A program made the position numbers and the translations under genes. DNA of 64,000 nt, from positions 7,488,054 to 7,552,053 of the forward strand of contig OX422196.1 in the NCBI GenBank assembly GCA_949130485.1, written 5' to 3'. Position 1 is the stretch's first letter, and the number at the start of each line of letters is the position of its first letter. The DNA is from Agelas oroides (Eukaryota; Porifera; Demospongiae; Agelasida; Agelasidae). Under the pieces are notes generated by a model. It was not told the origin of the DNA. It ran no database searches and saw nothing but the letters and a program-made list of their open reading frames with translations. Shown here piece after piece: positions 1-34,800 of the stretch.

Positions 1-798
1 CTTAGCCTAATAAATCAATATTTCTAGTGAGGATTTGGTGTTTCTTTCACATGTAGCCCTGGAGGAGTTCCTTGGTTGCATGGTTATGGTAGAAATGCCA
101 GAAATGTAGCCAAATAGGTCTTCTGAAAAAAGAGACTGATTTAACTAAAGAAGAAGCTTCTCAATGGGCTTTCAAGAAAACCTATTTGGTAGCATTCTTT
201 GGATAATATTCACACTAATGCAACTGAGACAACCTAGAAATGTGGTTGAAGCAACCTAAGTGTTTTTGCTTTCATCTTGCACACCTGGCCCTGGATGGTT
301 GTCTTGGTTGCATGGTTATAGCTACTAGAGATCTGTATCTATAGTACATTCACTGAGTATTATATGTAACTACACTGCTAATTATGTATAGAGCTGCAGG
401 TGAAATACGTACCTGTGACTCCACTGAAAGAGTTTAGTGCTGTACCTTTTATATCTATACCTGTTTAATGCCAATTTGATGCATCTACACAGAGTTCAAA
501 TCTATGCTATCATAGTTGGTTAGAAACTGTCCTGGCGTGGTGCTGAAGTGCCTAGGCATGATCTTCAGGCCATATTTTGACAATACATTTCTATTTACGA
601 AGATGATGCCATAATTTATCTCATGCCACGCACAGCATATAGGAGACTGTGAAGTGAACTGTCAAGAATCTGAGGAAACTGCATAAGACCATTCTGATAC
701 CTAGTAAAACAACAAACTGAACCCTCGGGTCACTGGCATATGGATTTGTATTCGTCTGGAATATTTACTGATTATATCACATTCTTTCTTTTTGTTAG
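1..798. other. Presumed intron of gene A, upstream of the first visible exon
   Basis: No convincing exon was found here. The stretch ends in a pyrimidine-rich acceptor (TTTTTGTTAG) at 798, so at least its right part is intron of gene A. Two diverged direct repeats lie near 50-97 and 278-325; both read roughly 'CCTGGA..GTTCCTTGGTTGCATGGTTAT'-like text and share GGTTGCATGGTTAT. By comparison with gene B, the preceding exon of gene A should encode a somatomedin B domain, but I do not see one in these 798 bases, so it probably lies outside the window. Confidence 0.6.
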
Positions 799-1077
799 AT
801 ATCACCATTGGTTTTGCAATGCCAAACTACACAGTCAATGAGACAATAGGACTTGTCATGCTGGCTGTCACTGCTGAGGGCAACTTCCCCTCTCTGGATC
901 TACAGTCACGACTCACTGTACCAGTGGAGGCAACTGTGCTTGTAAACACTGATGACATCACTGCCGAAGGTAGGCATTGGTACACTACTCTTCAACTAAT
1001 ACTGCTAATAATTAATGATGTGACAGTATGTTTTACATAAGCTTTGTAGCTCAGCTACATTTGTACTTCCCACCCTT

Positions 1078-1141
<64 letters not shown>

Positions 1142-10100: not shown

Positions 10101-10805
10101 ACAGTGTACTCCTAAATTGCATTATGCAGCTGACAGTGACTATGGAATGTTACGGGATGATCTCCTATTTGAGCAGGCAACCCCACGACAGTGCAGAAAC
10201 ATTTCCATAGTGGACGACACAGTTTTGGAAAGGGATGAAGTTTTCTCTGTTATTCTTACCACTGTCGATTTATCTGTAGTCCTCAGCCCAAATATATCCA
10301 CAGCTCTCATCATAGACAATGATGGTATGTGTGTATATGATTACTTAGTGTCACTCGAGTAGTGTGATCATAACTGACCTTAATCTTCTGTAGGAGTGAA
10401 TGTTACATTTGAGCAGCAGACCTATACTATTGGAGAAGATGATGGGTCAGTGACCGTGTGTGTTCGTATAACAGGGGAGTTCGAGAGGCCAGTGGAAGTT
10501 AACCTATCTACAGAACCAGACTCAGCACAAAGTTAGTGTACTATTTATACCTTCTTGTAACAAATTGATCAATGCATTTGCATAATGTGGTCTTCTAAAT
10601 ACAGGTGGAAGTGATTTTACTATTGTATCAGAAGTACTGATATTCGAACCTTCAGTGAATGTCAGCCTCCTGTGTGTAATGGTGGACATTGTTAATGACT
10701 CTGTTCTTGAGGAGGAGCAAACTTTCTTCTTGGTTCTCTCTACTGCTGATCCTGACATTACAGTTCAGGAAGATCCAGCTGTGGTCCTCATCATGGACAA
10801 TGATG
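799..10805 (+). CDS. Gene A, proximal block: 27 exons, 13 diverged Calx-beta domains
   Basis: Exon pairs, each pair one Calx-beta domain: 799-969/1173-1364; 2787-2918/3253-3315/3723-3893 (three exons); 4124-4270/4343-4561; 4688-4840/5262-5477; 5926-6063/6146-6364; 6662-6799/6900-7094; 7212-7355/7420-7617; 7682-7816/7889-8086; 8163-8312/8463-8669; 8748-8885/9029-9226; 9433-9570/9643-9843; 9917-10060/10130-10324; 10394-10531/10605-10805. First exons carry the 'YTVSEG..TVTVCA' strand and end near T(A/K)AQG; second exons carry 'DF....FTF..G', a central 'C(V/I)NI.I.DD..LE..E.F.V.L' and end in 'TILDDD/DNDG', the acidic end that in Calx-beta domains helps bind calcium. All introns are phase 1. Domains 6-13 resemble one another more (EDD..LE(E/N)DE.FFV) than they resemble the array domains. 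About 1,513 residues. Identification as Calx-beta is firm; binding partners are unknown. Confidence 0.88.
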
Positions 10806-13800
10806 GTATATATTGCTCCTCATGTTATCTAACCTAGTCAGTATTTGTTTTACATATCAGTATTGCCTACTCCCTAAAATTGAAGTGTCAAACCATACAC
10901 ACCGTACCCAGGGCTTGATATACGCTAACATGTCAGTACATTCATATTAAATATGACTAATGCATGAGAGAGATTTTTGCAACAGTTTGATGTTTCCTAA
11001 AAAACATTATTATTGTGTGGTTTGGTATCCTTACTGAATTATGGTGCTACAGTTCGTTATCAGTTGTTTGTACAAGCACAGTGTGCAGGATTATTTATTT
11101 CTTAACAGGTGCTACTGTGACTATTATGTCCTCTGACTATACGGTAAGTGAGAGCCAGAGTTCTGTGGAAGTGTGTGCCAGTCTGACTGACATTCCTGCT
11201 GGTGGTTTGGAGTGTGAAATTGTGGCAACCATGAACACCACAGCCAGCACTAAAGCAAGTATGTCACCTAATGTATGCTCTAATTGAGGAAGACTATTAG
11301 AATGCATGTTTGAATTCAAGAAAGCTCTGTTCTGGTTGAGGTTGGAGCCATTGCTAAAGCAGCAGATATGAGAGAGGGAGATTTATGAAATTTGAAGTGA
11401 ATAGGTATTTAGTTGATTTTGTGCAGTCAAATTGGAGCCAAGGTATGAAGGGCATAGTGTCTAACTCAAAATTTGTCCATCGACAAAAGAGTAATTCTAG
11501 TGTTGAGTGATATGCATTTCTACTCATTCCCTTTCAGTTGCAGGCAGTGACTATGTGGCAGGACCACTGCAGGCCACATTCTCCACAAGCAGTGTGGAAG
11601 GTTCTACCTCATGTGTAGACATAGACATCCTGCAGGACCTAGCTCTTGAAAGTAACCACAGTTTTGGCGTTGAGGTGATCTCGGCCACTCCTTCAGTTGT
11701 GGTGGTGGGCACACCTCGTGAAGAGACAGTCACCATCCTGGATGATGAAAGTATGTAGAATAAAAGGTGTCACTAAGCCAATCTGCCAGGTTGAATGAAT
11801 GAATGTATGTATTCTATCACAGTTGAAACTGTCACTGTTGGATTTGAGCAGACTTCCTACTCAGCAAGTGAGGATGGACCACTGAATGTGCGGGTGTGTG
11901 CAATGATAAGCAACCTGCTGGGAGATCTTGAATGCAACCTTGTGGTGACTTTTAATGCTGTATCCAACAACAAATCAGGTAAGGTTGTACGTTTTGTTAT
12001 CCAGCAGTGTGAAGTGGCAACCTGAAAGTAAAATTTTATGATCCACAGTTGATGGTGAAGACTTCACAGTTGCACCTCCGGATGTATTTGAGGCAACATT
12101 TTTAGCAATGTCCACATCGAATGGAAATACATCATGTGACAATATCACTATCATTGATGATGGTGTTCTGGAAGGAGAGCACTCCTTTGAGATTCAGATT
12201 GCTAGCACTGACCCAATGTTAAGCACCATCAACCCAGCTTCCACTGTGGTGACTATTCAAGATAACAATGGTACCTAATGTCTTATTTGTTGAATGTACA
12301 AATTTTCATACTTGTTGAATTACTAACAGGTGCGACTGTGACTATTGTGTCCTCTGACTATGTGGTGGATGAGAGCCAGAGTTCTGTGGAAGTGTGTGCC
12401 AGTCTGACTGATATTCCTTCTGGTGGTTTGGAGTGTGAAGTTGTGGCAACCATGAACACCACAACCAGCACTAAAGCAAGTATGTCACCTAATGTATGCT
12501 CTAATTGAGGATGACTATTAGAATGCATGTTTGAATTCAAGAAAGCTCTGTTCTTGTTGAGGTTGGAGCCATTGCTAAAGCAGCAGATATGAGAGAGGGA
12601 GATTTATGAAATTTGAAGTGAATAGGTATTTAGTTGATTTTGTGCAGTCAAATTGGAGCCAAGGTATGAAGGGCATAGTGTCTAACTCAAAATTTGTCCA
12701 TCGACAAAAGAGTAATTCTAGTGTTGAGTGATATGCATTTCTACTCATTCCCTTTCAGTTGCAGGCAGTGACTATGTGGCAGGACCACTGCAGGCCACAT
12801 TCTCCACAAGCAGTGTGGAAGGTTCTACCTCATGTGTAGACATAGACATCCTGCAGGACCTAGCTCTTGAAAGTAACCACAGTTTTGGCGTTGAGGTGAT
12901 CTCGGCCACTCCTTCAGTTGTGGTGGTGGGCACACCTCGTGAAGAGACAGTCACCATCCTGGATGATGAAAGTATGTAGAATAAAAGGTGTCACTAAGCC
13001 AATCTGCCAGGTTGAATGAATGAATGTATGTATTCTATCACAGTTGAAACTGTCACTGTTGGATTTGAGCAGACTTCCTACTCAGCAAGTGAGGATGGAC
13101 CACTGAATGTGCGGGTGTGTGCAATGATAAGCAACCTGCTGGGAGATCTTGAATGCAACCTTGTGGTGACTTTTAATGCTGTATCCAACAACAAATCAGG
13201 TAAGGTTGTACGTTTTGTTATCCAGCAGTGTGAAGTGGCAACCTGAAAGTAAAATTTTATGATCCACAGTTGATGGTGAAGACTTCACAGTTGCACCTCC
13301 GGATGTATTTGAGGCAACATTTTTAGCAATGTCCACATCGAATGGAAATACATCATGTGACAATATCACTATCATTGATGATGGTGTTCTGGAAGGAGAG
13401 CACTCCTTTGAGATTCAGATTGTTAGCACTGACCCAATGTTAAGCACCATCAACCCAGCTTCCACTGTGGTGACTATTCAAGATAACGATGGTACCTAAT
13501 GACTTATTTGTTGAATGTACAAATTTTCATACTTGTTGAATTACTAACAGGTGCGACTGTGACTATTGTGTCCTCTGACTATGTGGTGGATGAGAGCCAG
13601 AGTTCTGTGGAAGTGTGTGCCAGTCTGACTGATATTCCTGCTGGTGGTTTGGAGTGTGAAGTTGTGGCAACCATGAACACCACAGCCAGCACTAAAGCAA
13701 GTATGTCACCTAATGTATGCTCTAATTGAGGATGACTATTAGAATGCATGTTTGAATTCAAGAAAGCTCTGTTCTGGTTGAGGTTTGAGCCATTGCTAAA

Positions 13801-16800
13801 GCAGCAGATATGAGAGAGGGAGATTTATGAAATTTGAAGTGAATAGGTATTTAGTTGATTTTGTGCAGTCAAATTGGAGCCAAGGTATGAAGGGCATAGT
13901 GTCTAACTCAAAATTTGTCCATCGACAAAAGAGTAATTCTAGTGTTGAGTGATATGCATTTCTACTCATTCCCTTTCAGTTGCAGGCAGTGACTATGTGG
14001 CAGGACCACTGCAGGCCACATTCTCCACAAGCAGTGTGGAAGGTTCTACCTCATGTGTAGACATAGACATCCTGCAGGACCTAGCTCTTGAAAGTAACCA
14101 CAGTTTTGGCGTTGAGGTGATCTCGGCCACTCCTTCAGTTGTGGTGGTGGGCACACCTCGTGAAGAGACAGTCACCATCCTGGATGATGAAAGTATGTAG
14201 AATAAAAGGTGTCACTAAGCCAATCTGCCAGGTTGAATGAATGAATGTATGTATTCTATCACAGTTGAAACTGTCACTGTTGGATTTGAGCAGACTTCCT
14301 ACTCAGCAAGTGAGGATGGACCACTGAATGTGCGGGTGTGTGCAGTGATAAGCAACCTGCTGGGAGATCTTGAATGCAACCTTGTGGTGACTTTTAATGC
14401 TGTATCCAACAACAAATCAGGTAAGGTGGTACGTTTTGTTATCCAGCAGTGTGAAGTGGCAACCTGAAAGTAAAATTTTATGATCCACAGTTGATGGTGA
14501 AGACTTCACAGTTGCACCTCCGGATGTATTTGAGGCGACATTTTTAGCAATGTCCACATCGAATGGAAATACATCATGTGACAATATCACTATCATTGAT
14601 GATGGTGTTCTGGAAGGAGAGCACTCCTTTGAGATTCAGATTGCTAGCACTGACCCAATGTTAAGCACCATCAACCCAGCTTCCACTGTGGTGACTATTC
14701 AAGATAACGATGGTACCTAATGACTTATTTGTTGAATGTACAAATTTTCATACTTGTTGAATTACTAACAGGTGCGACTGTGACTATTGTGTCCTCTGAC
14801 TATGTGGTGGATGAGAGCCAGAGTTCTGTGGAAGTGTGTGCCAGTCTGACTGATATTCCTGCTGGTGGTTTGGAGTGTGAAGTTGTGGCAACCATGAACA
14901 CCACAACCAGCACTAAAGCAAGTATGTCACCTAATGTATGCTCTAATTGAGGATGACTATTAGAATGCATGTTTGAATTCAAGAAAGCTCTGTTCTGGTT
15001 GAGGTTGGAGCCATTGCTAAAGCAGCAGATATGAGAGAGGGAGATTTATGAAATTTGAAGTGAATAGGTATTTAGTTGATTTTGTGCAGTCAAATTGGAG
15101 CCAAGGTATGAAGGGCATAGTGTCTAACTCAAGATTTGTCCATCGACAAAAGAGTAATTCTAGTGTTGAGTGATATGCATTTCTACTCATTCCCTTTCAG
15201 TTGCAGGCAGTGACTATGTGGCAGGACCACTGCAGGCCACATTCTCCACAAGCAGTGTGGAAGGTTCTACCTCATGTGTAGACATAGACATCCTGCAGGA
15301 CCTAGCTCTTGAAAGTAACCACAGTTTTGGCGTTGAGGTGATCTCGGCCACTCCTTCAGTTGTGGTGGTGGGCACACCTCGTGAAGAGACAGTCACCATC
15401 CTGGATGATGAAAGTATGTAGAATAAAAGGTGTCACTAAGCCAATCTGCCAGGTTGAATGAATGAATGTATGTATTCTATCACAGTTGAAACTGTCACTG
15501 TTGGATTTGAGCAGACTTCCTACTCAGCAAGTGAGGATGGACCACTGAATGTGCGGGTGTGTGCAATGATAAGCAACCTGCTGGGAGATCTTGAATGCAA
15601 CCTTGTGGTGACTTTTAATGCTGTATCCAACAACAAATCAGGTAAGGTTGTACGTTTTGTTATCCAGCAGTGTGAAGTGGCAACCTGAAAGTAAAATTTT
15701 ATGATCCACAGTTGATGGTGAAGACTTCACAGTTGCACCTCCGGATGTATTTGAGGCAACATTTTTAGCAATGTCCACATCGAATGGAAATACATCATGT
15801 GACAATATCACTATCATTGATGATGGTGTTCTGGAAGGAGAGCACTCCTTTGAGATTCAGATTGCTAGCACTGACCCAATGTTAAGCACCATCAACCCAG
15901 CTTCCACTGTGGTGACTATTCAAGATAACGATGGTACCTAATGACTTATTTGTTGAATGTACAAATTTTCATACTTGTTGAATTACTAACAGGTGCGACT
16001 GTGACTATTGTGTCCTCTGACTATGTGGTGGATGAGAGCCAGAGTTCTGTGGAAGTGTGTGCCAGTCTGACTGATATTCCTGCTGGTGGTTTGGAGTGTG
16101 AAGTTGTGGCAACCATGAACACCACAGCCAGCACTAAAGCAAGTATGTCACCTAATGTATGCTCTAATTGAGGATGACTATTAGAATGCATGTTTGAATT
16201 CAAGAAAGCTCTGTTCTGGTTGAGGTTGGAGCCAGTGCTAAAGCAGCAGATATGAGAGAGGGAGATTTATGAAATTTGAAGTGAATAGGTATTTAGTTGA
16301 TTTTGTGCAGTCAAATTGGAGCCAAGGTATGAAGGGCATAGTGTCTAACTCAAAATTTGTCCATCGACAAAAGAGTAATTCTAGTGTTGAGTGATATGCA
16401 TTTCTACTCATTCCCTTTCAGTTGCAGGCAGTGACTATGTGGCAGGACCACTGCAGGCCACATTCTCCACAAGCAGTGTGGAAGGTTCTACCTCATGTGT
16501 AGACATAGACATCCTGCAGGACCTAGCTCTTGAAAGTAACCACAGTTTTGGCGTTGAGGTGATCTTGGCCACTCCTTCAGTTGTGGTGGTGGGCACACCT
16601 CGTGAAGAGACAGTCACCATCCTGGATGATGAAAGTATGTAGAATAAAAGGTGTCACTAAGCCAATCTGCCAGGTTGAATGAATGAATGTATGTATTCTA
16701 TCACAGTTGAAACTGTCACTGTTGGATTTGAGCAGACTTCCTACTCAGCAAGTGAGGATGGACCACTGAATGTGCGGGTGTGTGCAGTGATAAGCAACCT

Positions 16801-19800
16801 GCTGGGAGATCTTGAATGCAACCTTGTGGTGACTTTTAATGCTGTATCCAACAACAAATCAGGTAAGGTGGTACGTTTTGTTATCCAGCAGTGTGAAGTG
16901 GCAACCTGAAAGTAAAATTTTATGATCCACAGTTGATGGTGAAGACTTCACAGTTGCACCTCCGGATGTATTTGAGGCGACATTTTTAGCAATGTCCACA
17001 TCGAATGGAAATACATCATGTGACAATATCACTATCATTGATGATGGTGTTCTGGAAGGAGAGCACTCCTTTGAGATTCAGATTGCTAGCACTGACCCAA
17101 TGTTAAGCACCATCAACCCAGCTTCCACTGTGGTGACTATTCAAGATAACGATGGTACCTAATGACTTATTTGTTGAATGTACAAATTTTCATACTTGTT
17201 GAATCACTAACAGGTGCGACTGTGACTATTGTGTCCTCTGACTATGTGGTGGATGAGAGCCAGAGTTCTGTGGAAGTGTGTGCCAGTCTGACTGATATTC
17301 CTGCTGGTGGTTTGGAGTGTGAAGTTGTGGCAACCATGAACACCACAGCCAGCACTAAAGCAAGTATGTCACCTAATGTATGCTCTAATTGAGGATGACT
17401 ATTAGAATGCATGTTTGAATTCAAGAAAGCTCTGTTCTGGTTGAGGTTGGAGCCATTGCTAAAGCAGCAGATATGAGAGAGGGAGATTTATGAAATTTGA
17501 AGTGAATAGGTATTTAGTTTATTTTGTGCAGTCAAATTGGAGCCAAGGTATGAAGGGCATAGTGTCTAACTCAAAATTTGTCCATCGACAAAAGAGTAAT
17601 TCTAGTGTTGAGTGATATGCATTTCTACTCATTCCCTTTCAGTTGCAGGCAGTGACTATGTGGCAGGACCACTGCAGGCCACATTCTCCACAAGCAGTGT
17701 GGAAGGTTCTACCTCATGTGTAGACATAGACATCCTGCAGGACCTAGCTCTTGAAAGTAACCACAGTTTTGGCGTTGAGGTGATCTCGGCCACTCCTTCA
17801 GTTGTGGTGGTGGGCACACCTCGTGAAGAGACAGTCACCATCCTGGATGATGAAAGTATGTAGAATAAAAGGTGTCACTAAGCCAATCTGCCAGGTTGAA
17901 TGAATGAATGTATGTATTCTATCACAGTTGAAACTGTCACTGTTGGATTTGAGCAGACTTCCTACTCAGCAAGTGAGGATGGACCACTGAATGTGCGGGT
18001 GTGTGCAATGATAAGCAACCTGCTGGGAGATCTTGAATGCAACCTTGTGGTGACTTTTAATGCTGTATCCAACAACAAATCAGGTAAGGTTGTACGTTTT
18101 GTTATCCAGCAGTGTGAAGTGGCAACCTGAAAGTAAAATTTTATGATCCACAGTTGATGGTGAAGACTTCACAGTTGCACCTCCGGATGTATTTGAGGCA
18201 ACATTTTTAGCAATGTCCACATCGAATGGAAATACATCATGTGACAATATCACTATCATTGATGATGGTGTTCTGGAAGGAGAGCACTCCTTTGAGATTC
18301 AGATTGCTAGCACTGACCCAATGTTAAGCACCATCAACCCAGCTTCCACTGTGGTGACTATTCAAGATAACGATGGTACCTAATGACTTATTTGTTGAAT
18401 GTACAAATTTTCATACTTGTTGAATTACTAACAGGTGCGACTGTGACTATTGTGTCCTCTGACTATGTGGTGGATGAGAGCCAGAGTTCTGTGGAAGTGT
18501 GTGCCAGTCTGACTGATATTCCTGCTGGTGGTTTGGAGTGTGAAGTTGTGGCAACCATGAACACCACAGCCAGCACTAAAGCAAGTATGTCACCTAATGT
18601 ATGCTCTAATTGAGGATGACTATTAGAATGCATGTTTGAATTCAAGAAAGCTCTGTTCTGGTTGAGGTTGGAGCCAGTGCTAAAGCAGCAGATATGAGAG
18701 AGGGAGATTTATGAAATTTGAAGTGAATAGGTATTTAGTTGATTTTGTGCAGTCAAATTGGAGCCAAGGTATGAAGGGCATAGTGTCTAACTCAAAATTT
18801 GTCCATCGACAAAAGAGTAATTCTAGTGTTGAGTGATATGCATTTCTACTCATTCCCTTTCAGTTGCAGGCAGTGACTATGTGGCAGGACCACTGCAGGC
18901 CACATTCTCCACAAGCAGTGTGGAAGGTTCTACCTCATGTGTAGACATAGACATCCTGCAGGACCTAGCTCTTGAAAGTAACCACAGTTTTGGCGTTGAG
19001 GTGATCTTGGCCACTCCTTCAGTTGTGGTGGTGGGCACACCTCGTGAAGAGACAGTCACCATCCTGGATGATGAAAGTATGTAGAATAAAAGGTGTCACT
19101 AAGCCAATCTGCCAGGTTGAATGAATGAATGTATGTATTCTATCACAGTTGAAACTGTCACTGTTGGATTTGAGCAGACTTCCTACTCAGCAAGTGAGGA
19201 TGGACCACTGAATGTGCGGGTGTGTGCAGTGATAAGCAACCTGCTGGGAGATCTTGAATGCAACCTTGTGGTGACTTTTAATGCTGTATCCAACAACAAA
19301 TCAGGTAAGGTGGTACGTTTTGTTATCCAGCAGTGTGAAGTGGCAACCTGAAAGTAAAATTTTATGATCCACAGTTGATGGTGAAGACTTCACAGTTGCA
19401 CCTCCGGATGTATTTGAGGCGACATTTTTAGCAATGTCCACATCGAATGGAAATACATCATGTGACAATATCACTATCATTGATGATGGTGTTCTGGAAG
19501 GAGAGCACTCCTTTGAGATTCAGATTGCTAGCACTGACCCAATGTTAAGCACCATCAACCCAGCTTCCACTGTGGTGACTATTCAAGACAACGATGGTAC
19601 CTAATGACTTATTTGTTGAATGTACAAATTTTCATACTTGTTGAATTACTAACAGGTGCGACTGTGACTATTGTGTCCTCTGACTATGTGGTGGATGAGA
19701 GCCAGAGTTCTGTGGAAGTGTGTGCCAGTCTGACTGATATTCCTGCTGGTGGTTTGGAGTGTGAAGTTGTGGCAACCATGAACACCACAGCCAGCACTAA

Positions 19801-22800
19801 AGCAAGTATGTCACCTAATGTATGCTCTAATTGAGGATGACTATTAGAATGCATGTTTGAATTCAAGAAAGCTCTGTTCTGGTTGAGGTTGGAGCCATTG
19901 CTAAAGCAGCAGATATGAGAGAGGGAGATTTATGAAATTTGAAGTGAATAGGTATTTAGTTGATTTTGTGCAGTCAAATTGGAGCCAAGGTATGAAGGGG
20001 ATAGTGTCTAACTCAAAATTTGTCCATCGACAAAAGAGTAATTCTAGTGTTGAGTGATATGCATTTCTACTCATTCCCTTTCAGTTGCAGGCAGTGACTA
20101 TGTGGCAGGACCACTGCAGGCCACATTCTCCACAAGCAGTGTGGAAGGTTCTACCTCATGTGTAGACATAGACATCCTGCAGGACCTAGCTCTTGAAAGT
20201 AACCACAGTTTTGGCGTTGAGGTGATCTCGGCCACTCCTTCAGTTGTGGTGGTGGGCACACCTCGTGAAGAGACAGTCACCATCCTGGATGATGAAAGTA
20301 TGTAGAATAAAAGGTGTCACTAAGCCAATCTGCCAGGTTGAATGAATGAATGTATGTATCCTATCACAGTTGAAACTGTCACTGTTGGATTTGAGCAGAC
20401 TTCCTACTCAGCAAGTGAGGATGGACCACTGAATGTGCGGGTGTGTGCAGTGATAAGCAACCTGCTGGGAGATCTTGAATGCAACCTTGTGGTGACTTTT
20501 AATGCTGTATCCAACAACAAATCAGGTAAGGTTGTACGTTTTGTTATCCAGCAGTGTGAAGTGGCAACCTGAAAGTAAAATTTTGTGATTCACAGTTGAT
20601 GGTGAAGATTTCACAGTTGCACCTCCGGATGTATTTGAGGCGACATTTTTAGCAATGTCCACATCGAATGGAAATTCATCATGTGACAATATCACTATCA
20701 TTGATGATGGTGTTCTGGAAGGAGAGCACTCCTTTGAGATTCAGATTGCTAGCACTGACCCAATGTTAAGCACCATCAACCCAACTTCCACTGTGGTGAC
20801 TATTCAAGATAACGATGGTACCTAATGACTTATTTGTTGAATGTACAAATTTTCATACTTGTTGAATTACTAACAGGTGCGACTGTGACTATTGTGTCCT
20901 CTGACTATGTGGTGAATGAGAGCCAGAGTTCTGTGGAAGTGTGTGCCAGTCTGACTGATATTCCTGCTGGTGGTTTGGAGTGTGAAGTTGTGGCAACCAT
21001 GAACACCACAGCCAGCACTAAAGCAAGTATGTCACCTAATGTATGCTCTAATTGAGGAAGACTATTAGATTGCATGTTTGAATTCAAGAAAGCTCTGTTC
21101 TGGTTGAGGTTGGAGCCATTGCTAAAGCAGCAGATATGAGAGAGGGAGATTTATGAAATTTGAAGTGAATAGGTATTTAGTTGATTTTGTGCAGTCAAAT
21201 TGGAGCCAAGGTATGAAGGGCATAGTGTCTAACTCAAAATTTGTCCATCGACAAAAGAGTAATTCTAGTGTTGAGTGATATGCATTTCTACTCATTCCCT
21301 TTCAGTTGCAGGCAGTGACTATGTGGCAGGACCACTGCAGGCCACATTCTCCACAAACAGTGTGGAAGGTTCTACCTCATGTGTAGACATAGACATCCTG
21401 CAGGACCTAGCTCTTGAAAGTAACCACAGTTTTGGCGTTGAGGTGATCTCGGCCACTCCTTCAGTTGTGGTGGTGGGCACACCTCGTGAAGAGACAGTCA
21501 CCATCCTGGATAATGAAAGTATGTAGAATAAAAGGTGTCACTAAGCCAATCTGCCAGGTTGAATGAATGAATGTATGTATTCTATCACAGTTGAAACTGT
21601 CACTGTTGGATTTGAGCAGACTTCCTACTCAACAAGTGAGGATGGACCACTGAATGTGCGGGTGTGTGCAGTGATAAGCAACCTGCTGGGAGATCTTGAA
21701 TGCAACCTTGTGGTGACTTTTAATGCTGTATCCAACAACAAATCAGGTAAGGTGGTACGTTTTGTTATCCAGCAGTGTGAAGTGGCAACCTGAAAGTAAA
21801 ATTTTATGATCCACAGTTGATGGTGAAGACTTCACAGTTGCACCTCCGGATGTATTTGAGGCGACATTTTTAGCAATGTCCACATCGAATGGAAATACAT
21901 CATGTGACAATATCACTATCATTGATGATGGTGTTCTGGAAGGAGAGCACTCCTTTGAGATTCAGATTGCTAGCACTGACCCAATGTTAAGCACCATCAA
22001 CCCAGCTTCCACTGTGGTGACTATTCAAGATAACGATGGTACCTAATGACTTATTTGTTGAATGTACAAATTTTCATACTTGTTGAATTACTAACAGGTG
22101 CGACTGTGACTATTGTGTCCTCTGACTATGTGGTGGATGAGAGCCAGAGTTCTGTGGAAGTGTGTGCCAGTCTGACTGATATTCCTTCTGGTGGTTTGGA
22201 GTGTGAAGTTGTGGTAACCATGAACACCACAGCCAGTACTAAAGCAAGTATGTCACCTAATGTATGCTCTAATTGAGGATGACTATTAGAATGCATGTTT
22301 GAATTCAAGAAAGCTCTGTTCTGGTTGAGGTTGGAGCCAGTGCTAAAGCAGCAGATATGAGAGAGGGAGATTTATGAAATTTGAAGTGAATAGGTATTTA
22401 GTTGATTTTGTGCAGTCAAATTGGAGCCAAGGTATGAAGGGCATAGTGTCTAACTCAAAATTTGTCCATCGACAAAAGAGTAATTCTAGTGTTGAGTGAT
22501 ATGCATTTCTACTCATTCCCTTTCAGTTGCAGGCAGTGACTATGTGGCAGGACCACTGCAGGCCACATTCTCCACAAGCAGTGTGGAAGGTTCTACCTCA
22601 TGTGTAGACATAGACATCCTGCAGGACCTAGCTCTTGAAAGTAACCACAGTTTTGGCGTTGAAGTGATCTCGGTCACTCCTTCAGTTGTGGTGGTGGGCA
22701 CACCTCGTGAAGAGACAGTCACCATCCTGGATGATGAAAGTATGTAAAATAAAAGGTGTCACTAAGCGAATCTGCCAGGTTGAATGAATGAATGTATGTA

Positions 22801-25800
22801 TTCTATCACAGTTGAAACTGTCACTGTTGGATTTGAGCAGACTTCCTACTCAGCAAGTGAGGATGGACCACTGAATGTGCGGGTGTGTGCAGTGATAAGC
22901 AACCTGCTGGGAGATCTTGAATGCAACCTTGTGGTGACTTTTAATGCTGTATCCAACAACAAATCAGGTAAGGTGGTACGTTTTGTTATCCAGCAGTGTG
23001 AAGTGGCAACCTTAAAGTAAAATTTTATGATCCACAGTTGATGGTGAAGACTTCACAGTTGCACCTCCGGATGTATTTGAGGCGACATTTTTAGCAATGT
23101 CCACATCGAATGGAAATACATCATGTGACAATATCACTATCATTGATGATGGTGTTCTGGAAGGAGAGCACTCCTTTGAGATTCAGATTGCTAGCACTGA
23201 CCCAATGTTAAGCACCATCAACCCAGCTTCCACTGTGGTGACTATTCAAGATAACGATGGTACCTAATGACTTATTTGTTGAATGTACAAATTTTCATAC
23301 TTGTTGAATCACTAACAGGTGCGACTGTGACTATTGTGTCCTCTGACTATGTGGTGGATGAGAGCCAGAGTTCTGTGGAAGTGTGTGCCAGTCTGACTGA
23401 TATTCCTGCTGGTGGTTTGGAGTGTGAAGTTGTGGCAACCATGAACACCACAGCCAGCACTAAAGCAAGTATGTCACCTAATGTATGCTCTAATTGAGGA
23501 TGACTATTAGAATGCATGTTTGAATTCAAGAAAGCTCTGTTCTGGTTGAGGTTGGAGCCATTGCTAAAGCAGCAGATATGAGAGAGGGAGATTTATGAAA
23601 TTTGAAGTGAATAGGTATTTAGTTGATTTTGTGCAGTCAAATTGGAGCCAAGGTATGAAGGGCATAGTGTCTAACTCAAAATTTGTCCATCGACAAAAGA
23701 GTAATTCTAGTGTTGAGTGATATGCATTTCTACTCATTCCCTTTCAGTTGCAGGCAGTGACTATGTGGCAGGACCACTGCAGGCCACATTCTCCACAAGC
23801 AGTGTGGAAGGTTCTACCTCATGTGTAGACATAGACATCCTGCAGGACCTAGCTCTTGAAAGTAACCACAGTTTTGGCGTTGAGGTGATCTCGGCCACTC
23901 CTTCAGTTGTGGTGGTGGGCACACCTCGTGAAGAGACAGTCACCATCCTGGATGATGAAAGTATGTAGAATAAAAGGTGTCACTAAGCCAATCTGCCAGG
24001 TTGAATGAATGAATGTATGTATTCTATCACAGTTGAAACTGTCACTGTTGGATTTGAGCAGACTTCCTACTCAGCAAGTGAGGATGGACCACTGAATGTG
24101 CGGGTGTGTGCAGTGATAAGCAACCTGCTGGGAGATCTTGAATGCAACCTTGTGGTGACTTTTAATGCTGTATCCAACAACAAATCAGGTAAGGTGGTAC
24201 GTTTTGTTATCCAGCAGTGTGAAGTGGCAACCTGAAAGTAAAATTTTATGATCCACAGTTGATGGTGAAGACTTCACAGTTGCACCTCCGGATGTATTTG
24301 AGGCGACATTTTTAGCAATGTCCACATCGAATGGAAATACATCATGTGACAATATCACTATCATTGATGATGGTGTTCTGGAAGGAGAGCACTCCTTTGA
24401 GATTCAGATTGCTAGCACTGACCCAATGTTAAGCACCATCAACCCAGCTTCCACTGTGGTGACTATTCAAGATAACGATGGTACCTAATGACTTATTTGT
24501 TGAATGTACAAATTTTCATACTTGTTGAATTACTAACAGGTGCGACTGTGACTATTGTGTCCTCTGACTATGTGGTGGATGAGAGCCAGAGTTCTGTGGA
24601 AGTGTGTGCCAGTCTGACTGATATTCCTGCTGGTGGTTTGGAGTGTGAAGTTGTGGCAACCATGAACACCACAGCCAGCACTAAAGCAAGTATGTCACCT
24701 AATGTATGCTCTATTTGAGGATGACTATTAGAATGCATGTTTGAATTCAAGAAAGCTCTGTTCTGGTTGAGGTTGGAGCCATTGCTAAAGCAGCAGATAT
24801 GAGAGAGGGAGATTTATGAAATTTGAAGTGAATAGGTATTTAGTTGATTTTGTGCAGTCAAATTGGAGCCAAGGTATGAAGGGCATAGTGTCTAACTCAA
24901 AATTTGTCCATCGTCAAAAGAGTAATTCTAGTGTTGAGTGATATGCATTTCTACTCATTCCCTTTCAGTTGCAGGCAGTGACTATGTGGCAGGACCACTG
25001 CAGGCCACATTCTCCACAAGCAGTGTGGAAGGTTCTACCTCATGTGTAGACATAGACATCCTGCAGGACCTAGCTCTTGAAAGTAACCACAGTTTTGGCG
25101 TTGAAGTGATCTCGGTCACTCCTTCAGTTGTGGTGGTGGGCACACCTCGTGAAGAGACAGTCACCATCCTGGATGATGAAAGTATGTAAAATAAAAGGTG
25201 TCACTAAGCGAATCTGCCAGGTTGAATGAATGAATGTATGTATTCTATCACAGTTGAAACTGTCACTGTTGGATTTGAGCAGACTTCCTACTCAGCAAGT
25301 GAGGATGGACCACTGAATGTGCGGGTGTGTGCAGTGATAAGCAACCTGCTGGGAGATCTTGAATGCAACCTTGTGGTGACTTTTAATGCTGTATCCAACA
25401 ACAAATCAGGTAAGGTGGTACGTTTTGTTATCCAGCAGTGTGAAGTGGCAACCTTAAAGTAAAATTTTATGATCCACAGTTGATGGTGAAGACTTCACAG
25501 TTGCACCTCCGGATGTATTTGAGGCGACATTTTTAGCAATGTCCACATCGAATGGAAATACATCATGTGACAATATCACTATCATTGATGATGGTGTTCT
25601 GGAAGGAGAGCACTCCTTTGAGATTCAGATTGCTAGCACTGACCCAATGTTAAGCACCATCAACCCAGCTTCCACTGTGGTGACTATTCAAGATAACGAT
25701 GGTACCTAATGACTTATTTGTTGAATGTACAAATTTTCATACTTGTTGAATCACTAACAGGTGCGACTGTGACTATTGTGTCCTCTGACTATGTGGTGGA

Positions 25801-28800
25801 TGAGAGCCAGAGTTCTGTGGAAGTGTGTGCCAGTCTGACTGATATTCCTGCTGGTGGTTTGGAGTGTGAAGTTGTGGCAACCATGAACACCACAGCCAGC
25901 ACTAAAGCAAGTATGTCACCTAATGTATGCTCTAATTGAGGATGACTATTAGAATGCATGTTTGAATTCAAGAAAGCTCTGTTCTGGTTGAGGTTGGAGC
26001 CATTGCTAAAGCAGCAGATATGAGAGAGGGAGATTTATGAAATTTGAAGTGAATAGGTATTTAGTTGATTTTGTGCAGTCAAATTGGAGCCAAGGTATGA
26101 AGGGCATAGTGTCTAACTCAAAATTTGTCCATCGACAAAAGAGTAATTCTAGTGTTGAGTGATATGCATTTCTACTCATTCCCTTTCAGTTGCAGGCAGT
26201 GACTATGTGGCAGGACCACTGCAGGCCACATTCTCCACAAGCAGTGTGGAAGGTTCTACCTCATGTGTAGACATAGACATCCTGCAGGACCTAGCTCTTG
26301 AAAGTAACCACAGTTTTGGCGTTGAGGTGATCTCGGCCACTCCTTCAGTTGTGGTGGTGGGCACACCTCGTGAAGAGACAGTCACCATCCTGGATGATGA
26401 AAGTATGTAGAATAAAAGGTGTCACTAAGCCAATCTGCCAGGTTGAATGAATGAATGTATGTATTCTATCACAGTTGAAACTGTCACTGTTGGATTTGAG
26501 CAGACTTCCTACTCAGCAAGTGAGGATGGACCACTGAATGTGCGGGTGTGTGCAGTGATAAGCAACCTGCTGGGAGATCTTGAATGCAACCTTGTGGTGA
26601 CTTTTAATGCTGTATCCAACAACAAATCAGGTAAGGTGGTACGTTTTGTTATCCAGCAGTGTGAAGTGGCAACCTGAAAGTAAAATTTTATGATCCACAG
26701 TTGATGGTGAAGACTTCACAGTTGCACCTCCGGATGTATTTGAGGCGACATTTTTAGCAATGTCCACATCGAATGGAAATACATCATGTGACAATATCAC
26801 TATCATTGATGATGGTGTTCTGGAAGGAGAGCACTCCTTTGAGATTCAGATTGCTAGCACTGACCCAATGTTAAGCACCATCAACCCAACTTCCACTGTG
26901 GTGACTATTCAAGATAACGATGGTACCTTATGACTTATTTGTTGAATGTACAAATTTTCATACTTGTTGAATTACTAACAGGTGCGACTGTGACTATTGT
27001 GTCCTCTGACTATGTGGTGGATGAGAGCCAGAGTTCTGTGGAAGTGTGTGCCAGTCTGACTGATATTCCTGCTGGTGGTTTGGAGTGTGAAGTTGTGGCA
27101 ACCATGAACACCACAGCCAGCACTAAAGCAAGTATGTCACCTAATGTATGCTCTATTTGAGGATGACTATTAGAATGCATGTTTGAATTCAAGAAAGCTC
27201 TGTTCTGGTTGAGGTTGGAGCCATTGCTAAAGCAGCAGATATGAGAGAGGGAGATTTATGAAATTTGAAGTGAATAGGTATTTAGTTGATTTTGTGCAGT
27301 CAAATTGGAGCCAAGGTATGAAGGGCATAGTGTCTAACTCAAAATTTGTCCATCGTCAAAAGAGTAATTCTAGTGTTGAGTGATATGCATTTCTACTCAT
27401 TCCCTTTCAGTTGCAGGCAGTGACTATGTGGCAGGACCACTGCAGGCCACATTCTCCACAAGCAGTGTGGAAGGTTCTACCTCATGTGTAGACATAGACA
27501 TCCTGCAGGACCTAGCTCTTGAAAGTAACCACAGTTTTGGCGTTGAAGAGATCTCGGTCACTCCTTCAGTTGTGGTGGTGGGCACACCTCGTGAAGAGAC
27601 AGTCACCATCCTGGATGATGAAAGTATGTAAAATAAAAGGTGTCACTAAGCGAATCTGCCAGGTTGAATGAATGAATGTATGTATTCTATCACAGTTGAA
27701 ACTGTCACTGTTGGATTTGAGCAGACTTCCTACTCAGCAAGTGAGGATGGACCACTGAATGTGCGGGTGTGTGCAGTGATAAGCAACCTGCTGGGAGATC
27801 TTGAATGCAACCTTGTGGTGACTTTTAATGCTGTATCCAACAACAAATCAGGTAAGGTGGTACGTTTTGTTATCCAGCAGTGTGAAGTGGCAACCTGAAA
27901 GTAAAATTTTATGATCCACAGTTGATGGTGAAGACTTCACAGTTGCACCTCCGGATGTATTTGAGGCGACATTTTTAGCAATGTCCACATCGAATGGAAA
28001 TACATCATGTGACAATATCACTATCATTGATGATGGTGTTCTGGAAGGAGAGCACTCCTTTGAGATTCAGATTGCTAGCACTGACCCAATGTTAAGCACC
28101 ATCAACCCAGCTTCCACTGTGGTGACTATTCAAGATAACGATGGTACCTAATGACTTATTTGTTGAATGTACAAATTTTCATACTTGTTGAATTACTAAC
28201 AGGTGCGACTGTGACTATTGTGTCCTCTGACTATGTGGTGGATGAGAGCCAGAGTTCTGTGGAAGTGTGTGCCAGTCTGACTGATATTCCTGCTGGTGGT
28301 TTGGAGTGTGAAGTTGTGGCAACCATGAACACCACAGCCAGCACTAAAGCAAGTATGTCACCTAATGTATGCTCTATTTGAGGATGACTATTAGAATGCA
28401 TGTTTGAATTCAAGAAAGCTCTGTTCTGGTTGAGGTTGGAGCCATTGCTAAAGCAGCAGATATGAGAGAGGGAGATTTATGAAATTTGAAGTGAATAGGT
28501 ATTTAGTTGATTTTGTGCAGTCAAATTGGAGCCAAGGTATGAAGGGCATAGTGTCTAACTCAAAATTTGTCCATCGTCAAAAGAGTAATTCTAGTGTTGA
28601 GTGATATGCATTTCTACTCATTCCCTTTCAGTTGCAGGCAGTGACTATGTGGCAGGACCACTGCAGGCCACATTCTCCACAAGCAGTGTGGAAGGTTCTA
28701 CCTCATGTGTAGACATAGACATCCTGCAGGACCTAGCTCTTGAAAGTAACCACAGTTTTGGCGTTGAAGTGATCTCGGTCACTCCTTCAGTTGTGGTGGT

Positions 28801-31800
28801 GGGCACACCTCGTGAAGAGACAGTCACCATCCTGGATGATGAAAGTATGTAAAATAAAAGGTGTCACTAAGCGAATCTGCCAGGTTGAATGAATGAATGT
28901 ATGTATTCTATCACAGTTGAAACTGTCACTGTTGGATTTGAGCAGACTTCCTACTCAGCAAGTGAGGATGGACCACTGAATGTGCGGGTGTGTGCAGTGA
29001 TAAGCAACCTGCTGGGAGATCTTGAATGCAACCTTGTGGTGACTTTTAATGCTGTATCCAACAACAAATCAGGTAAGGTGGTACGTTTTGTTATCCAGCA
29101 GTGTGAAGTGGCAACCTGAAAGTAAAATTTTATGATCCACAGTTGATGGTGAAGACTTCACAGTTGCACCTCCGGATGTATTTGAGGCGACATTTTTAGC
29201 AATGTCCACATCGAATGGAAATACATCATGTGACAATATCACTATCATTGATGATGGTGTTCTGGAAGGAGAGCACTCCTTTGAGATTCAGATTGTTAGC
29301 ACTGACCCAATGTTAAGCACCATCAACCCAGCTTCCACTGTGGTGACTATTCAAGATAACGATGGTACCTAATGTCTTATTTGTTGAATGTACAAATTTT
29401 CATACTTGTTGAATTACTAACAGGTGCGACTGTGACTATTGTGTCCTCTGACTATGTGGTGGATGAGAGCCAGAGTTCTGTGGAAGTGTGTGCCAGTCTG
29501 ACTGATATTCCTGCTGGTGGTTTGGAGTGTGAAGTTGTGGCAACCATGAACACCACAGCCAGCACTAAAGCAAGTATGTCACCTAATGTATGCTCTAATT
29601 GAGGATGACTATTAGAATGCATGTTTGAATTCAAGAAAGCTCTGTTCTGGTTGAGGTTGGAGCCATTGCTAAAGCAGCAGATATGAGAGAGGGAGATTTA
29701 TGAAATTTGAAGTGAATAGGTATTTAGTTGATTTTGTGCAGTCAAATTGGAGCCAAGGTATGAAGGGCATAGTGTCTAACTCAAAATTTGTCCATCGACA
29801 AAAGAGTAATTCTAGTGTTGAGTGATATGCATTTCTACTCATTCCCTTTCAGTTGCAGGCAGTGACTATGTGGCAGGACCACTGCAGGCCACATTCTCCA
29901 CAAGCAGTGTGGAAGGTTCTACCTCATGTGTAGACATAGACATCCTGCAGGACCTAGCTCTTGAAAGTAACCACAGTTTTGGCGTTGAGGTGATCTCGGC
30001 CACTCCTTCAGTTGTGGTGGTGGGCACACCTCGTGAAGAGACAGTCACCATCCTGGATGATGAAAGTATGTAGAATAAAAGGTGTCACTAAGCCAATCTG
30101 CCAGGTTGAATGAATGAATGTATGTATTCTATCACAGTTGAAACTGTCACTGTTGGATTTGAGCAGACTTCCTACTCAGCAAGTGAGGATGGACCACTGA
30201 ATGTGCGGGTGTGTGCAGTGATAAGCAACCTGCTGGGAGATCTTGAATGCAACCTTGTGGTGACTTTTAATGCTGTATCCAACAACAAATCAGGTAAGGT
30301 GGTACGTTTTGTTATCCAGCAGTGTGAAGTGGCAACCTGAAAGTAAAATTTTATGATCCACAGTTGATGGTGAAGACTTCACAGTTGCACCTCCGGATGT
30401 ATTTGAGGCGACATTTTTAGCAATGTCCACATCGAATGGAAATACATCATGTGACAATATCACTATCATTGATGATGGTGTTCTGGAAGGAGAGCACTCC
30501 TTTGAGATTCAGATTGCTAGCACTGACCCAATGTTAAGCACCATCAACCCAGCTTCCACTGTGGTGACTATTCAAGATAACGATGGTACCTAATGACTTA
30601 TTTGTTGAATGTACAAATTTTCATACTTGTTGAATTACTAACAGGTGCGACTGTGACTATTGTGTCCTCTGACTATGTGGTGGATGAGAGCCAGAGTTCT
30701 GTGGAAGTGTGTGCCAGTCTGACTGATATTCCTGCTGGTGGTTTGGAGTGTGAAGTTGTGGCAACCATGAACACCACAGCCAGCACTAAAGCAAGTATGT
30801 CACCTAATGTATGCTCTAATTGAGGATGACTATTAGAATGCATGTTTGAATTCAAGAAAGCTCTGTTCTGGTTGAGGTTGGAGCCATTGCTAAAGCAGCA
30901 GATATGAGAGAGGGAGATTTATGAAATTTGAAGTGAATAGGTATTTAGTTGATTTTGTGCAGTCAAATTGGAGCCAAGGTATGAATGGCATAGTGTCTAA
31001 CTCAAAATTTGTCCATCGACAAAAGAGTAATTCTAGTGTTGAGTGATATGCATTTCTACTCATTCCCTTTCAGTTGCAGGCAGTGACTATGTGGCAGGAC
31101 CACTGCAGGCCACATTCTCCACAAGCAGTGTGGAAGGTTCTACCTCATGTGTAGACATAGACATCCTGCAGGACCTAGCTCTTGAAAGTAACCACAGTTT
31201 TGGCGTTGAGGTGATCTCGGCCACTCCTTCAGTTGTGGTGGTGGGCACACCTCGTGAAGAGACAGTCACCATCCTGGATGATGAAAGTATGTAGAATAAA
31301 AGGTGTCACTAAGCCAATCTGCCAGGTTGAATGAATGAATGTATGTATTCTATCACAGTTGAAACTGTCACTGTTGGATTTGAGCAGACTTCCTACTCAG
31401 CAAGTGAGGATGGACCACTGAATGTGCGGGTGTGTGCAGTGATAAGCAACCTGCTGGGAGATCTTGAATGCAACCTTGTGGTGACTTTTAATGCTGTATC
31501 CAACAACAAATCAGGTAAGGTGGTACGTTTTGTTGTCCAGCAGTGTGAAGTGGCAACCTGAAAGTAAAATTTTATGATCCACAGTTGATGGTGAAGACTT
31601 CACAGTTGCACCTCCGGATGTATTTGAGGCGACATTTTTAGCAATGTCCACATCGAATGGAAATACATCATGTGACAATATCACTATCATTGATGATGGT
31701 GTTCTGGAAGGAGAGCACTCCTTTGAGATTCAGATTGCTAGCACTGACCCAATGTTAAGCACCATCAACCCAGCTTCCACTGTGGTGACTATTCAAGATA

Positions 31801-34800
31801 ACGATGGTACCTAATGACTTATTTGTTGAATGTACAAATTTTCATACTTGTTGAATTACTAACAGGTGCGACTGTGACTATTGTGTCCTCTGACTATGTG
31901 GTGGATGAGAGCCAGAGTTCTGTGGAAGTGTGTGCCAGTCTGACTGATATTCCTGCTGGTGGTTTGGAGTGTGAAGTTGTGGCAACCATGAACACCACAG
32001 CCAGCACTAAAGCAAGTATGTCACCTAATGTATGCTCTAATTGAGGATGACTATTAGAATGCATGTTTGAATTCAAGAAAGCTCTGTTCTGGTTGAGGTT
32101 TGAGCCATTGCTAAAGCAGCAGATATGAGAGAGGGAGATTTATGAAATTTGAAGTGAATAGGTATTTAATTGATTTTGTGCAGTCAAATTGGAGCCAAGG
32201 TATGAAGGGCATAGTGTCTAACTCAAAATTTGTCCATCGACAAAAGAGTAATTCTAGTGTTGAGTGATATGCATTTCTACTCATTCCCTTTCAGTTGCAG
32301 GCAGTGACTATGTGGCAGGACCACTGCAGGCCACATTCTCCACAAGAAGTGTGGAAGGTTCTACCTCATGTGTAGACATAGACATCCTGCAGGACCTAGC
32401 TCTTGAAAGTAACCACAGTTTTGGCATTGAGGTGATCTCGGCCACTCCTTCAGTTGTGGTGGTGGGCACACCTCGTGAAGAGACAGTCACCATCCTGGAT
32501 GATGAAAGTATGTAAAATAAAAGGAGTCACTTAGCCAATCTGCCAGGTTGAATGAATGAATGTATGTGTTCTATCACAGTTGAAACTGTCACTGTTGGAT
32601 TTGAGCAGACTTCCTACTCAGCAAGTGAGGATGGACCACTGAATGTGCGGGTGTGTGCAGTGATAAGCAACCTGCTGGGAGATCTTGAATGCAACCTTGT
32701 GGTGACTTTTAATGCTGTATCCAACAACAAATCAGGTAAGGTTGTACGTTTTGTTATCCAGCAGTGTGAAGTGGCAACCTGAAAGTAAAATTTTATGATC
32801 CACAGTTGATGGTGAAGACTTCACAGTTGCACCTCCGGATGTATTTGAGGCGACATTTTTAGCAATGTCCACATCGAATGGAAATACATCATGTGACAAT
32901 ATCACTATCATTGATGATGGTGTTCTGGAAGGAGAGCACTCCTTTGAGATTCACATTGTTAGCACTGACCCAATGTTAAGCACCATCAACCCAGCTTCCA
33001 CTGTGGTGACTATTCAAGATAACGATGGTACCTAATGACTTATTTGTTGAATGTACAAATTTTCATACTTGTTGAATTACTAACAGGTGCGACTGTGACT
33101 ATTGTGTCCTCTGACTATGTGGTGGATGAGAGCCAGAGTTCTGTGGAAGTGTGTGCCAGTCTGACTGATATTCCTGCTGGTGGTTTGGAGTGTGAAGTTG
33201 TGGCAACCATGAACACCACAGCCAGCACTAAAGCAAGTATGTCACCTAATGTATGCTCTAATTGAGGATGACTATTAGAATGCATGTTTGAATTCAAGAA
33301 AGCTCTGTTCTGGTTGAGGTTGGAGCCATTGCTAAAGCAGCAGATATGAGAGAGGGAGATTTATGAAATTTGAAGTGAATAGGTATTTAGTTGATTTTGT
33401 GCAGTCAAATTGGAGCCAAGGTATGAAGGGCATAGTGTCTAACTCAAAATTTGTCCATCGACAAAAGAGTAATTCTAGTGTTGAGTGATATGCATTTCTA
33501 CTCATTCCCTTTCAGTTGCAGGCAGTGACTATGTGGCAGGACCACTGCAGGCCACATTCTCCACAAGCAGTGTGGAAGGTTCTACCTCATGTGTAGACAT
33601 AGACATCCTGCAGGACCTAGCTCTTGAAAGTAACCACAGTTTTGGCGTTGAGGTGATCTCGGCCACTCCTTCAGTTGTGGTGGTGGGCACACCTCGTGAA
33701 GAGACAGTCACCATCCTGGATGATGAAAGTATGTAGAATAAAAGGTGTCACTAAGCCAATCTGCCAGGTTGAATGAATGAATGTATGTATTCTATCACAG
33801 TTGAAACTGTCACTGTTGGATTTGAGCAGACTTCCTACTCAGCAAGTGAGGATGGACCACTGAATGTGCGGGTGTGTGCAGTGATAAGCAACCTGCTGGG
33901 AGATCTTGAATGCAACCTTGTGGTGACTTTTAATGCTGTATCCAACAACAAATCAGGTAAGGTGGTACGTTTTGTTATCCAGCAGTGTGAAGTGGCAACC
34001 TGAAAGTAAAATTTTATGATCCACAGTTGATGGTGAAGATTTCACAGTTGCACCTCCGGATGTATTTGAGGCAACATTTTTAGCAATGTCCACATCGAAT
34101 GGAAATACAGTGTGTGACAATATCACTATCATTGATGATGATGTTCTGGAAGGAGAGCACTCCTTTGAGATTCAGATTGTTAGCACTCACCCAATGTTAA
34201 GCACCATCAACCCAGCTTCCACTGTGGTGACTATTCAGGACAATGAAGGTAGTGTTTTATACTATTGAGATATCTCAAGTGATAAACATTATGTTACATT
34301 GTTCCTTACAGATGCAACAATCTCGCTGGTAGCTCCAGCTGTTCCTGTGAATGAAGATATTGGTGCAGCACAAATTTGTTGTGCTCAGATTACTAATCTA
34401 CCTGCAGGTGGATTGGGCTGTCCCCTCATTGCTAGTCTCACTCTTGTTAATGGTGCTAAGGCAGGTATGTAAGTTTGTATGCGTACACACAGGAGTCTTC
34501 CATAGTTGACAAAGGGCTGGTGTCACATTGTCAAATCTTCTACATTTCTCTTCCTAGCATATGTAAACAGGTCGACTTCTTATATTTCTCTTCCTTGTAT
34601 AAATTATTATAGTGATGGGTGAAGACTTCTCTGCAGCTGACCCACTAGAGATAACATTTACACCAGGAGTAAATGAAGACATGGCATGTGCTATGGTATC
34701 TATCATTGATGATGCTGCTCTTGAGGGTGACCATTCATTCAGTGCTACACTAGCCTCTACTGTACCACCAATTACAATCAACAGCTCACCAGTTGAAGTC

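Follow-up and report, generated by a model that had tools for sequence, protein, structure and literature searches.

A predicted giant adhesion receptor gene of the demosponge Agelas oroides with a tandem array of 19 four-exon Calx-beta units

A tandem array of 19 four-exon units, which specify 38 Calx-beta domains, was identified in a window of 64,000 nucleotides from the genome of the demosponge Agelas oroides (contig OX422196.1, here named C14; the window corresponds to C14:7,488,054-7,552,053). The array is probably real and recently expanded, and it appears to be located within the gene of a giant adhesion G protein-coupled receptor (GPCR), in which the number of units would set the length of an extracellular rod. 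The coordinates of the predicted features are compiled in Table 1.

The anatomy of the array is near certain. Comparison of the sequence with itself at a lag of 1,221 bp yielded identities of 97-100% in every full 500-base bin within the array and of 22-29% in the displayed bins beyond its borders, whereas lags of 1,220 and 1,222 bp inside the array gave only 21-25%. The periodic stretch extends from position 11,143 to 34,246 and covers 23,104 bp, or 18.9 units, without any insertion or deletion (indel). Exon sizes are constant over all 76 exons (150, 213, 156 and 222 nt, 19 copies each), and the introns of 279, 72 and 70 bp (n = 19 each) and of 59 bp (n = 18) display zero length variation. 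The exact spacing of landmarks and the division of each unit into four phase-1 exons, both proposed in a first-pass annotation of this DNA, are therefore borne out by every copy. One unit encodes 247 residues with two Calx-beta stretches (Pfam PF03160, E 1.4e-18; 67.4 bits for one array unit against a cut-off of 27), which agrees with the annotated total of 38 domains. Tandem Repeats Finder was blind to the array because its period limit is 500. Units 2 to 18 deviate from their consensus at 0-11 of the 1,221 sites, and units 11 and 16 are identical. Unit 1 deviates at 15 sites; its first exon shares 94% identity with the consensus unit and was read as an older edge. Unit 19 deviates at 50 sites, of which 12 fall in exon 4 and all the others (38) in the last intron; the intron following this unit showed no alignment with the array introns (z 0.6).

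Variant statistics were calculated for the 17 units 2 to 18. Their mean pairwise divergence of 0.74% supports the earlier suggestion that the array may be young or homogenised. The 48 variable sites comprise 17 nonsynonymous (of 561), five synonymous (of 180) and 26 intronic sites (of 480). With 22 of 741 exonic positions variable, the introns are about 1.8 times more variable than the exons (Fisher P 0.035) and not quite as well conserved, contrary to the annotation. The densities of nonsynonymous and synonymous variable sites are equal (0.030 vs 0.028, Fisher P 1.0), and the 22 coding variants include neither a stop nor a frameshift. Private variants, present in a single unit, make up 30 of the 48 and are spread over 12 of the 17 units.

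The distribution of the shared variants provided information on the mode of growth. Minor alleles were found at two-unit distance in 22 of 65 sharing pairs compared with 7.1 expected (P 0.0014; 5,000 permutations, four lags), with no excess at one-unit distance (6 pairs vs 7.7 expected). Likewise, the mean difference between units is 7.0 at lag 2 compared with about 9 (P 0.0016, eight lags), and the contrast between lags 1 and 2 gave P 0.023. Variants are shared, for instance, at sites 795 and 987 (units 2, 4 and 6), at site 574 (units 5 and 7) and at site 566 (units 10, 12, 14 and 15). An array-wide alternation of even and odd units was rejected, with mean differences of 9.10 at odd and 8.98 at even lags (P 0.33). 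All four combinations of alleles were present at 42 of 153 informative site pairs, which are thus incompatible with one tree and fit exchange or conversion. The sharing of variants at lag 2 indicates that the array probably often grew by two units (2,442 bp, 494 residues, four domains), and growth by unequal exchange with frequent two-unit steps is the likely course. A length step of 494 residues is likelier than the 247 residues proposed in the annotation, although units 14 and 15 have variants in common as expected after a single-unit step.

Tandem growth occurred at this locus before, since older copies of the unit with a third domain inserted are present downstream, between 34.3 and 41.4 kb. 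Of the 15 exon comparisons of these copies that are free of gaps, 12 gave a nonsynonymous rate (dN) lower than the synonymous rate (dS); one gapped row was dropped. Exon dS values of 0.02-0.48 were found beside seemingly unrelated 40-bp intron flanks. Gene conversion restricted to exons was considered and dropped after a control by whole-intron alignment (16 comparisons, one being the unit-1 edge), which gave z values of 2.0-12.4 for intron 1, 2.1-4.5 for intron 2 and 6.2-26.2 for intron 3; for intron 4, three of the five comparisons gave no alignment. A mosaic is present at 37,712-38,159, where intron 3 is identical at 68 of 70 positions and exon 4 has a dS of 0.48.

The gene surrounding the array was modelled with our own phase-aware ab initio gene finder, which was trained on Calx-beta exons, and the C-terminal exons were placed by hand with the next-door paralogue, gene B, as guide. 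The finder enforces GT-AG intron ends and an open frame, and neither counts as evidence. Earlier runs of the finder over-predicted and fused neighbouring genes; one list of exons and the models for splicing and codons were reused from them, but none of their gene bounds. The predicted gene extends from window position -22,768 (C14:7465285), 22.8 kb upstream of the window, to position 54,512 and comprises 77.3 kb, 197 exons and 11,764 residues, with the array in its middle. The first exon of the model is signal-peptide-like, and 180 of the 196 introns are in phase 1. The exons preceding the first presumed GAIN region were assigned by our own profiles to 83 N-terminal and 83 C-terminal halves of Calx-beta domains and to five of neither class; these profiles were seeded from this locus, and the Pfam searches are independent of them. 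Accordingly, with one exon of the N-terminal class representing a whole domain, the model contains about 84 Calx-beta domains, 38 of which are contributed by the array. Outside the array, Pfam detected 7, 7, 3, 11, 3 and 12 Calx-beta stretches in six pieces of the ectodomain, which agrees with the profile-based counts. Cysteine occurs in 43 of the 45 N-half exons outside the array and in 38 of the 45 C-half ones. The length is divisible by three in 165 of the 166 Calx-beta exons. A cysteine-rich, somatomedin-B-like exon (-1232..-1098) had no match in Pfam.

The C-terminal part of the model carries features of an adhesion GPCR. The spliced sequence matched the seven-transmembrane (7TM) family 7tm_2 (PF00002) with E 2.1e-35, and a genomic match above the cut-off was located at window positions 53,289-53,612. 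GPS (PF01825) was detected in two stretches (E 2.6e-23), the best of which covers residues 991-1034 and is followed by the 7TM match from residue 1054 (numbering of the scanned sequence). Both GPS contain an HLT motif, which we take to be the autoproteolysis site. Two EGF_CA domains were additionally found (E 2.4e-15). In comparison with gene B, the C-terminal region gave a pooled dN of 0.19 and a dS of 0.40 (1,511 codons in 26 segments; the EGF region and a portion of the tail are counted twice), values that fit a functioning gene. The annotated assignment of the array to one receptor is supported by these matches on the predicted model: within the window, a single adhesion GPCR gene very probably contains the array, and the part modelled upstream of the window quite probably belongs to the same gene. 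The two GPS modules (46,128-47,896 and 50,246-52,006) lie in one receptor with EGF and Ig-like domains between them; human adhesion GPCRs, to our knowledge, have just one GPS each.

To place the receptor in its family, the 7TM domain was compared with solved structures (PDB, phmmer; solved chains only, no tree). The best matches belong to the ADGRG subfamily (G2, G6 and G4), with E 1e-42 for ADGRG2 compared with 3e-27 for ADGRL3 and 5.8e-8 for ADGRV1 (9fte); we know of no Calx-beta stalk in the ADGRG subfamily. A second Calx-beta adhesion GPCR, on contig C18, is also nearest to ADGRG2, and ADGRV1 is absent from its 21 matches (the query lacked the TM5 exon). Neither LamG/PTX nor EPTP was listed by Pfam (E up to 0.01) over the predicted ectodomain, which was scanned in full bar one residue with one unit standing for the array, although an exon may have been missed. 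Orthology to ADGRV1 was rejected for filing on account of the 7TM match and the missing LamG and EPTP domains, and the predicted protein is best described as an adhesion GPCR built like ADGRV1 rather than as a demonstrated ADGRV1. ADGRV1, also named VLGR1, has a long run of Calx-beta domains, a GPS and a 7tm_2 domain as well, whereas the sponge receptor differs by its number of Calx-beta domains, the second GPS, the EGF domains, the weak Ig-like domain and the 19-unit array.

According to the literature, human ADGRV1 has 35 Calx-beta domains (PMC10323441, PMC8421042) and is termed the largest adhesion GPCR (PMC13197933). ADGRV orthologues occur in choanoflagellates and filastereans (PMC12716839); a VLGR1 orthologue in Nematostella and a Capsaspora receptor with five Calx-beta domains have been described (PMC3251606). 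Among sponges, 40 adhesion GPCRs are reported for Amphimedon in an article whose main text is without the word Calx (PMC4302439), and 57 GPCRs with GPS for Halichondria panicea (PMC8242945). A figure legend on receptors of the latter species (GPCR, SRCR, CTLD, NLR and TIR) includes Calx-beta, GPS, GAIN and 7TM among the drawn domains, and a sponge Calx-beta adhesion GPCR may thus already be known from it; section 13 of this account refers neither to an array nor to a giant length or a number of domains. Among the literature matches listed, titles and abstract starts revealed no work about tandem arrays of Calx-beta domains. Filaggrin-type coding arrays likewise consist of repeated coding units, the number of which can vary (PMC5225520); unlike these, each unit in the sponge gene has four exons with introns and lies within a multi-exon receptor gene.

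A single unit sequence found no match among the solved structures, but a profile of 13 domains matched a Na/Ca exchange protein, presumably Drosophila Calx, with E 2.4e-19 and NCX1 with E 1e-18. The first calcium-binding domain of these proteins belongs to the same Calx-beta family and has its acidic positions aligned with those of the sponge domains; in NCX1 the acidic positions bind calcium, and in NCX1 and Calx the domains are regulatory parts of an exchanger. Cysteine is invariant at two columns in all 13 hand-picked domains, and the aligned rows of Calx and NCX1 are without cysteine there.

Four further Calx-beta arrays (Table 1), obtained by a k-mer scan and half-domain maps over selected stretches, with contigs C6 and C13 searched as 10-kb pieces, show that array birth recurs in this genome. 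The array of gene B consists of 2.7 units of 1,155 bp (2.0% divergence) followed by 5.8 units of 1,171 bp (0.7%), and indels separate the two types, so that the indel-free state is no general rule of these arrays; blastn found no match between this array and the unit described here. The array on contig C1 was considered older because of its divergence. A two-unit alternation is apparent on C6, with 5.0 differences at lag 2 vs 27.3 at lag 1 (four units only), and was not seen in the arrays of gene B and C13. The searched stretches of C1 (120 kb), C6 and C13 (10 kb each) contained no match to the C-terminal part of the receptor beyond a Calx-beta piece. Genome-wide, at least 172 Pfam Calx-beta matches were counted (150 of 1,086 candidate places scored), along with at least 167 exon matches to the 7TM domain, which point to dozens of relatives. 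Close 7TM relatives cluster on several contigs, including a group just upstream on the minus strand (C14:7,392,679-7,446,082), and at two more sites (on C18 and at C14:5.28 Mb) Calx-beta halves directly precede such a 7TM domain on the same strand.

A model of receptor lengthening can be proposed from these data. Because phase-1 introns flank every exon of the unit, the frame would survive any homologous misalignment that spans whole units, and domains could be freely gained or lost by unequal exchange; recent rounds of exchange would often have moved two units together, as the alternating variants suggest. Since the Calx-beta domains retain the acidic residues known from Calx and NCX1, the stalk should, by knowledge of the family, form a calcium-stiffened rod. 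Such a rod might contact a distant partner, and either binding or a pulling force might then act on the 7TM domain via the tethered agonist of the GPS, as discussed for ADGRV1. Rod length would be set by the number of units, and alleles are predicted to vary often by 2,442 bp. In view of the apparent youth of the array, the number of units may well be polymorphic between individuals; a role of the calcium-stiffened rod in adhesion or force sensing is a more tentative proposal.

Other explanations attribute less, or something different, to the number of units. The array could be a neutral coding macrosatellite, whose length is changed by unequal exchange in a receptor that works with any number of units. 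Equal densities of nonsynonymous and synonymous variants and the almost universal divisibility of Calx-beta exons by three, by which in-frame changes would be tolerated, speak for this possibility; the coding variants without stop or frameshift and the low dN in most older-copy comparisons speak against it, although both involve few events and are weak, and we regard neutrality as possible but somewhat doubtful. Length might alternatively be set at the RNA level, with alternative splicing of symmetric exons giving many lengths per allele. The same divisibility makes exon skipping frame-safe, yet one skipped exon would remove half a domain, and this explanation appears unlikely. Similarly improbable is a genome-wide generator of receptor length, in which Calx-beta stalk genes would repeatedly form arrays of frame-safe units (one, two or five domains) and thereby produce, without dedicated machinery, length alleles of giant adhesion GPCRs that differ sufficiently among individuals to act in cell contact as variants of identity or reach. 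Even less can be said for self-recognition, considered in the annotation, by an allorecognition receptor that encodes individual identity by polymorphism of stalk length and sequence: a surface receptor, an expandable array and clustered paralogues are circumstantial evidence in favour, but near-identical units would offer poor sequence variety, and variation is highest in the introns. Calx-beta domains also occur in sponge aggregation factors, for which we know of no 7TM domain, whereas the present gene has one.

An artefact, by which the assembler inflated a shorter array or chained haplotypes, is improbable. The array of 23 kb may exceed the length of many reads, and two of its units are identical; but a pasted block would be exact at read length, and exact repeats at unit lags reach no more than 2,013 bp, with no block of two whole units occurring twice exactly. 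Private variants in 12 of 17 units, the position of the array in a contig of 8.7 Mb (C14; the assembly has 259 Mb in 141 contigs) and the existence of other Calx-beta arrays with unit lengths of their own likewise argue against it. Searches of the assembly yielded one full-length copy of the left flank (29 of 29 candidates scored) and, among the 40 of 66 candidates scored, one identical full-length copy of the 7TM end, and hence no second haplotype for comparison. As judged from the sequence, expansion during assembly is unlikely, and a collapse, with a true number of units above 19, is conceivable.

The interpretation as a recently expanded array that sets the rod length of a giant adhesion GPCR thus remains the probable one, and several observations weigh against it. 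The gene rests on an ab initio model and on the assembly of one individual, and the N-terminal start, the tiny exons (-5043..-4999 and 3253..3315) and the join to the part before the window are predictions. A Pfam GAIN family was not listed at E up to 0.01, so that both GAIN regions are presumed by position alone. The change among units carries no sign of purifying selection, and the additional units might have no effect on function; moreover, odd and even lags are equal overall and the two-unit pattern is local. The proposals on rod, calcium, cleavage and signalling draw on analogy.

If the model holds, the receptor would be nearly twice as long as human ADGRV1 (6,306 residues) and possibly longer than any GPCR described so far. 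The combination of a stalk like that of ADGRV1 with another kind of 7TM domain would then mean that such stalks arose repeatedly or were swapped. In an animal that lacks both nerves and hair cells, the array would make ectodomain length a natural variable of an adhesion GPCR, and five arrays of differing unit lengths in one genome would show how repeat proteins lengthen.

Table 1. Predicted features of the receptor gene, its neighbour and further Calx-beta arrays (window coordinates unless a contig is given)
Feature	Coordinates	Strand	Remarks
Upstream part of receptor gene	1..10805	+	27 exons, 25 classed as Calx-beta halves
Tandem array	11109..34248	+	19 x 1,221 bp, 76 phase-1 exons, 38 Calx-beta domains; about model residues 3,724-8,417
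Unit 1	11109..12329	+	exons 11109-11258, 11538-11750, 11823-11978, 12049-12270
Unit 19	33087..34248	+	exon 4 (34027-34248) differs at 12/222 sites
Three older blocks	34312..41439	+	three domains each: diverged unit plus extra domain, introns unequal in length
Last stalk Calx-beta domains	41508..46064	+	one in a single exon (45230-45577)
First GPS motif	46128..47896	+	...CNHLTNFAV..., presumed GAIN region before it
Two Ca-binding EGF domains	48152..48529	+	Pfam
Ig-like domain	49180..49604	+	Pfam Ig_3 E 0.0078, below its cut-off
Cysteine-rich exon, second presumed GAIN region, second GPS motif	50246..52006	+	
7tm_2 core and cytoplasmic tail	52350..54512	+	core exons 52350-52483, 52598-52860, 53064-53172, 53309-; stop ends at 54512
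Gene B (next-door paralogue), first predicted exons	56816..64000	+	start is a prediction; C-terminal homology ends near 100.4 kb (extended window coordinates)
Gene B array	75,618-84,369 (C14, extended window coordinates)		two-domain units
C1 array	C1:26,603,106-26,605,339		668 bp, 3.3 units, one domain, 4.3% divergence
C6 array	C6:363,001-373,001 (cut by stretch)		2,448 bp, at least 4.1 units, five domains, 0.8% divergence
C13 array	C13:8,368,180-8,375,066		1,032 bp, 6.7 units, two domains, 1.0% divergence

An open reading frame with a QRICH1 domain lies on the minus strand within one of the receptor gene's long introns (39,348-40,007; Pfam E 9.7e-12), perhaps a mobile or captured element. Another intronic sequence is a fragment of a FLYWCH zinc finger (2,478-2,651; E 5e-10), and a 31-bp tandem repeat of 15.7 copies (1,768-2,255) is located not far from it. 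Elsewhere in the assembly, contig C141 carries a mitochondrial cox1 gene (C141:13,976-16,550; TGA read as Trp) that is split by an intron-like insert of about 1.2 kb with an open reading frame of 378 residues. The contig also carries atp9, a mitochondrial gene that among animals is a sponge feature, and was read as mitochondrial. Another cox1 match, without TGA codons, was detected at C107:16,176-16,808 and perhaps derives from a cobiont.

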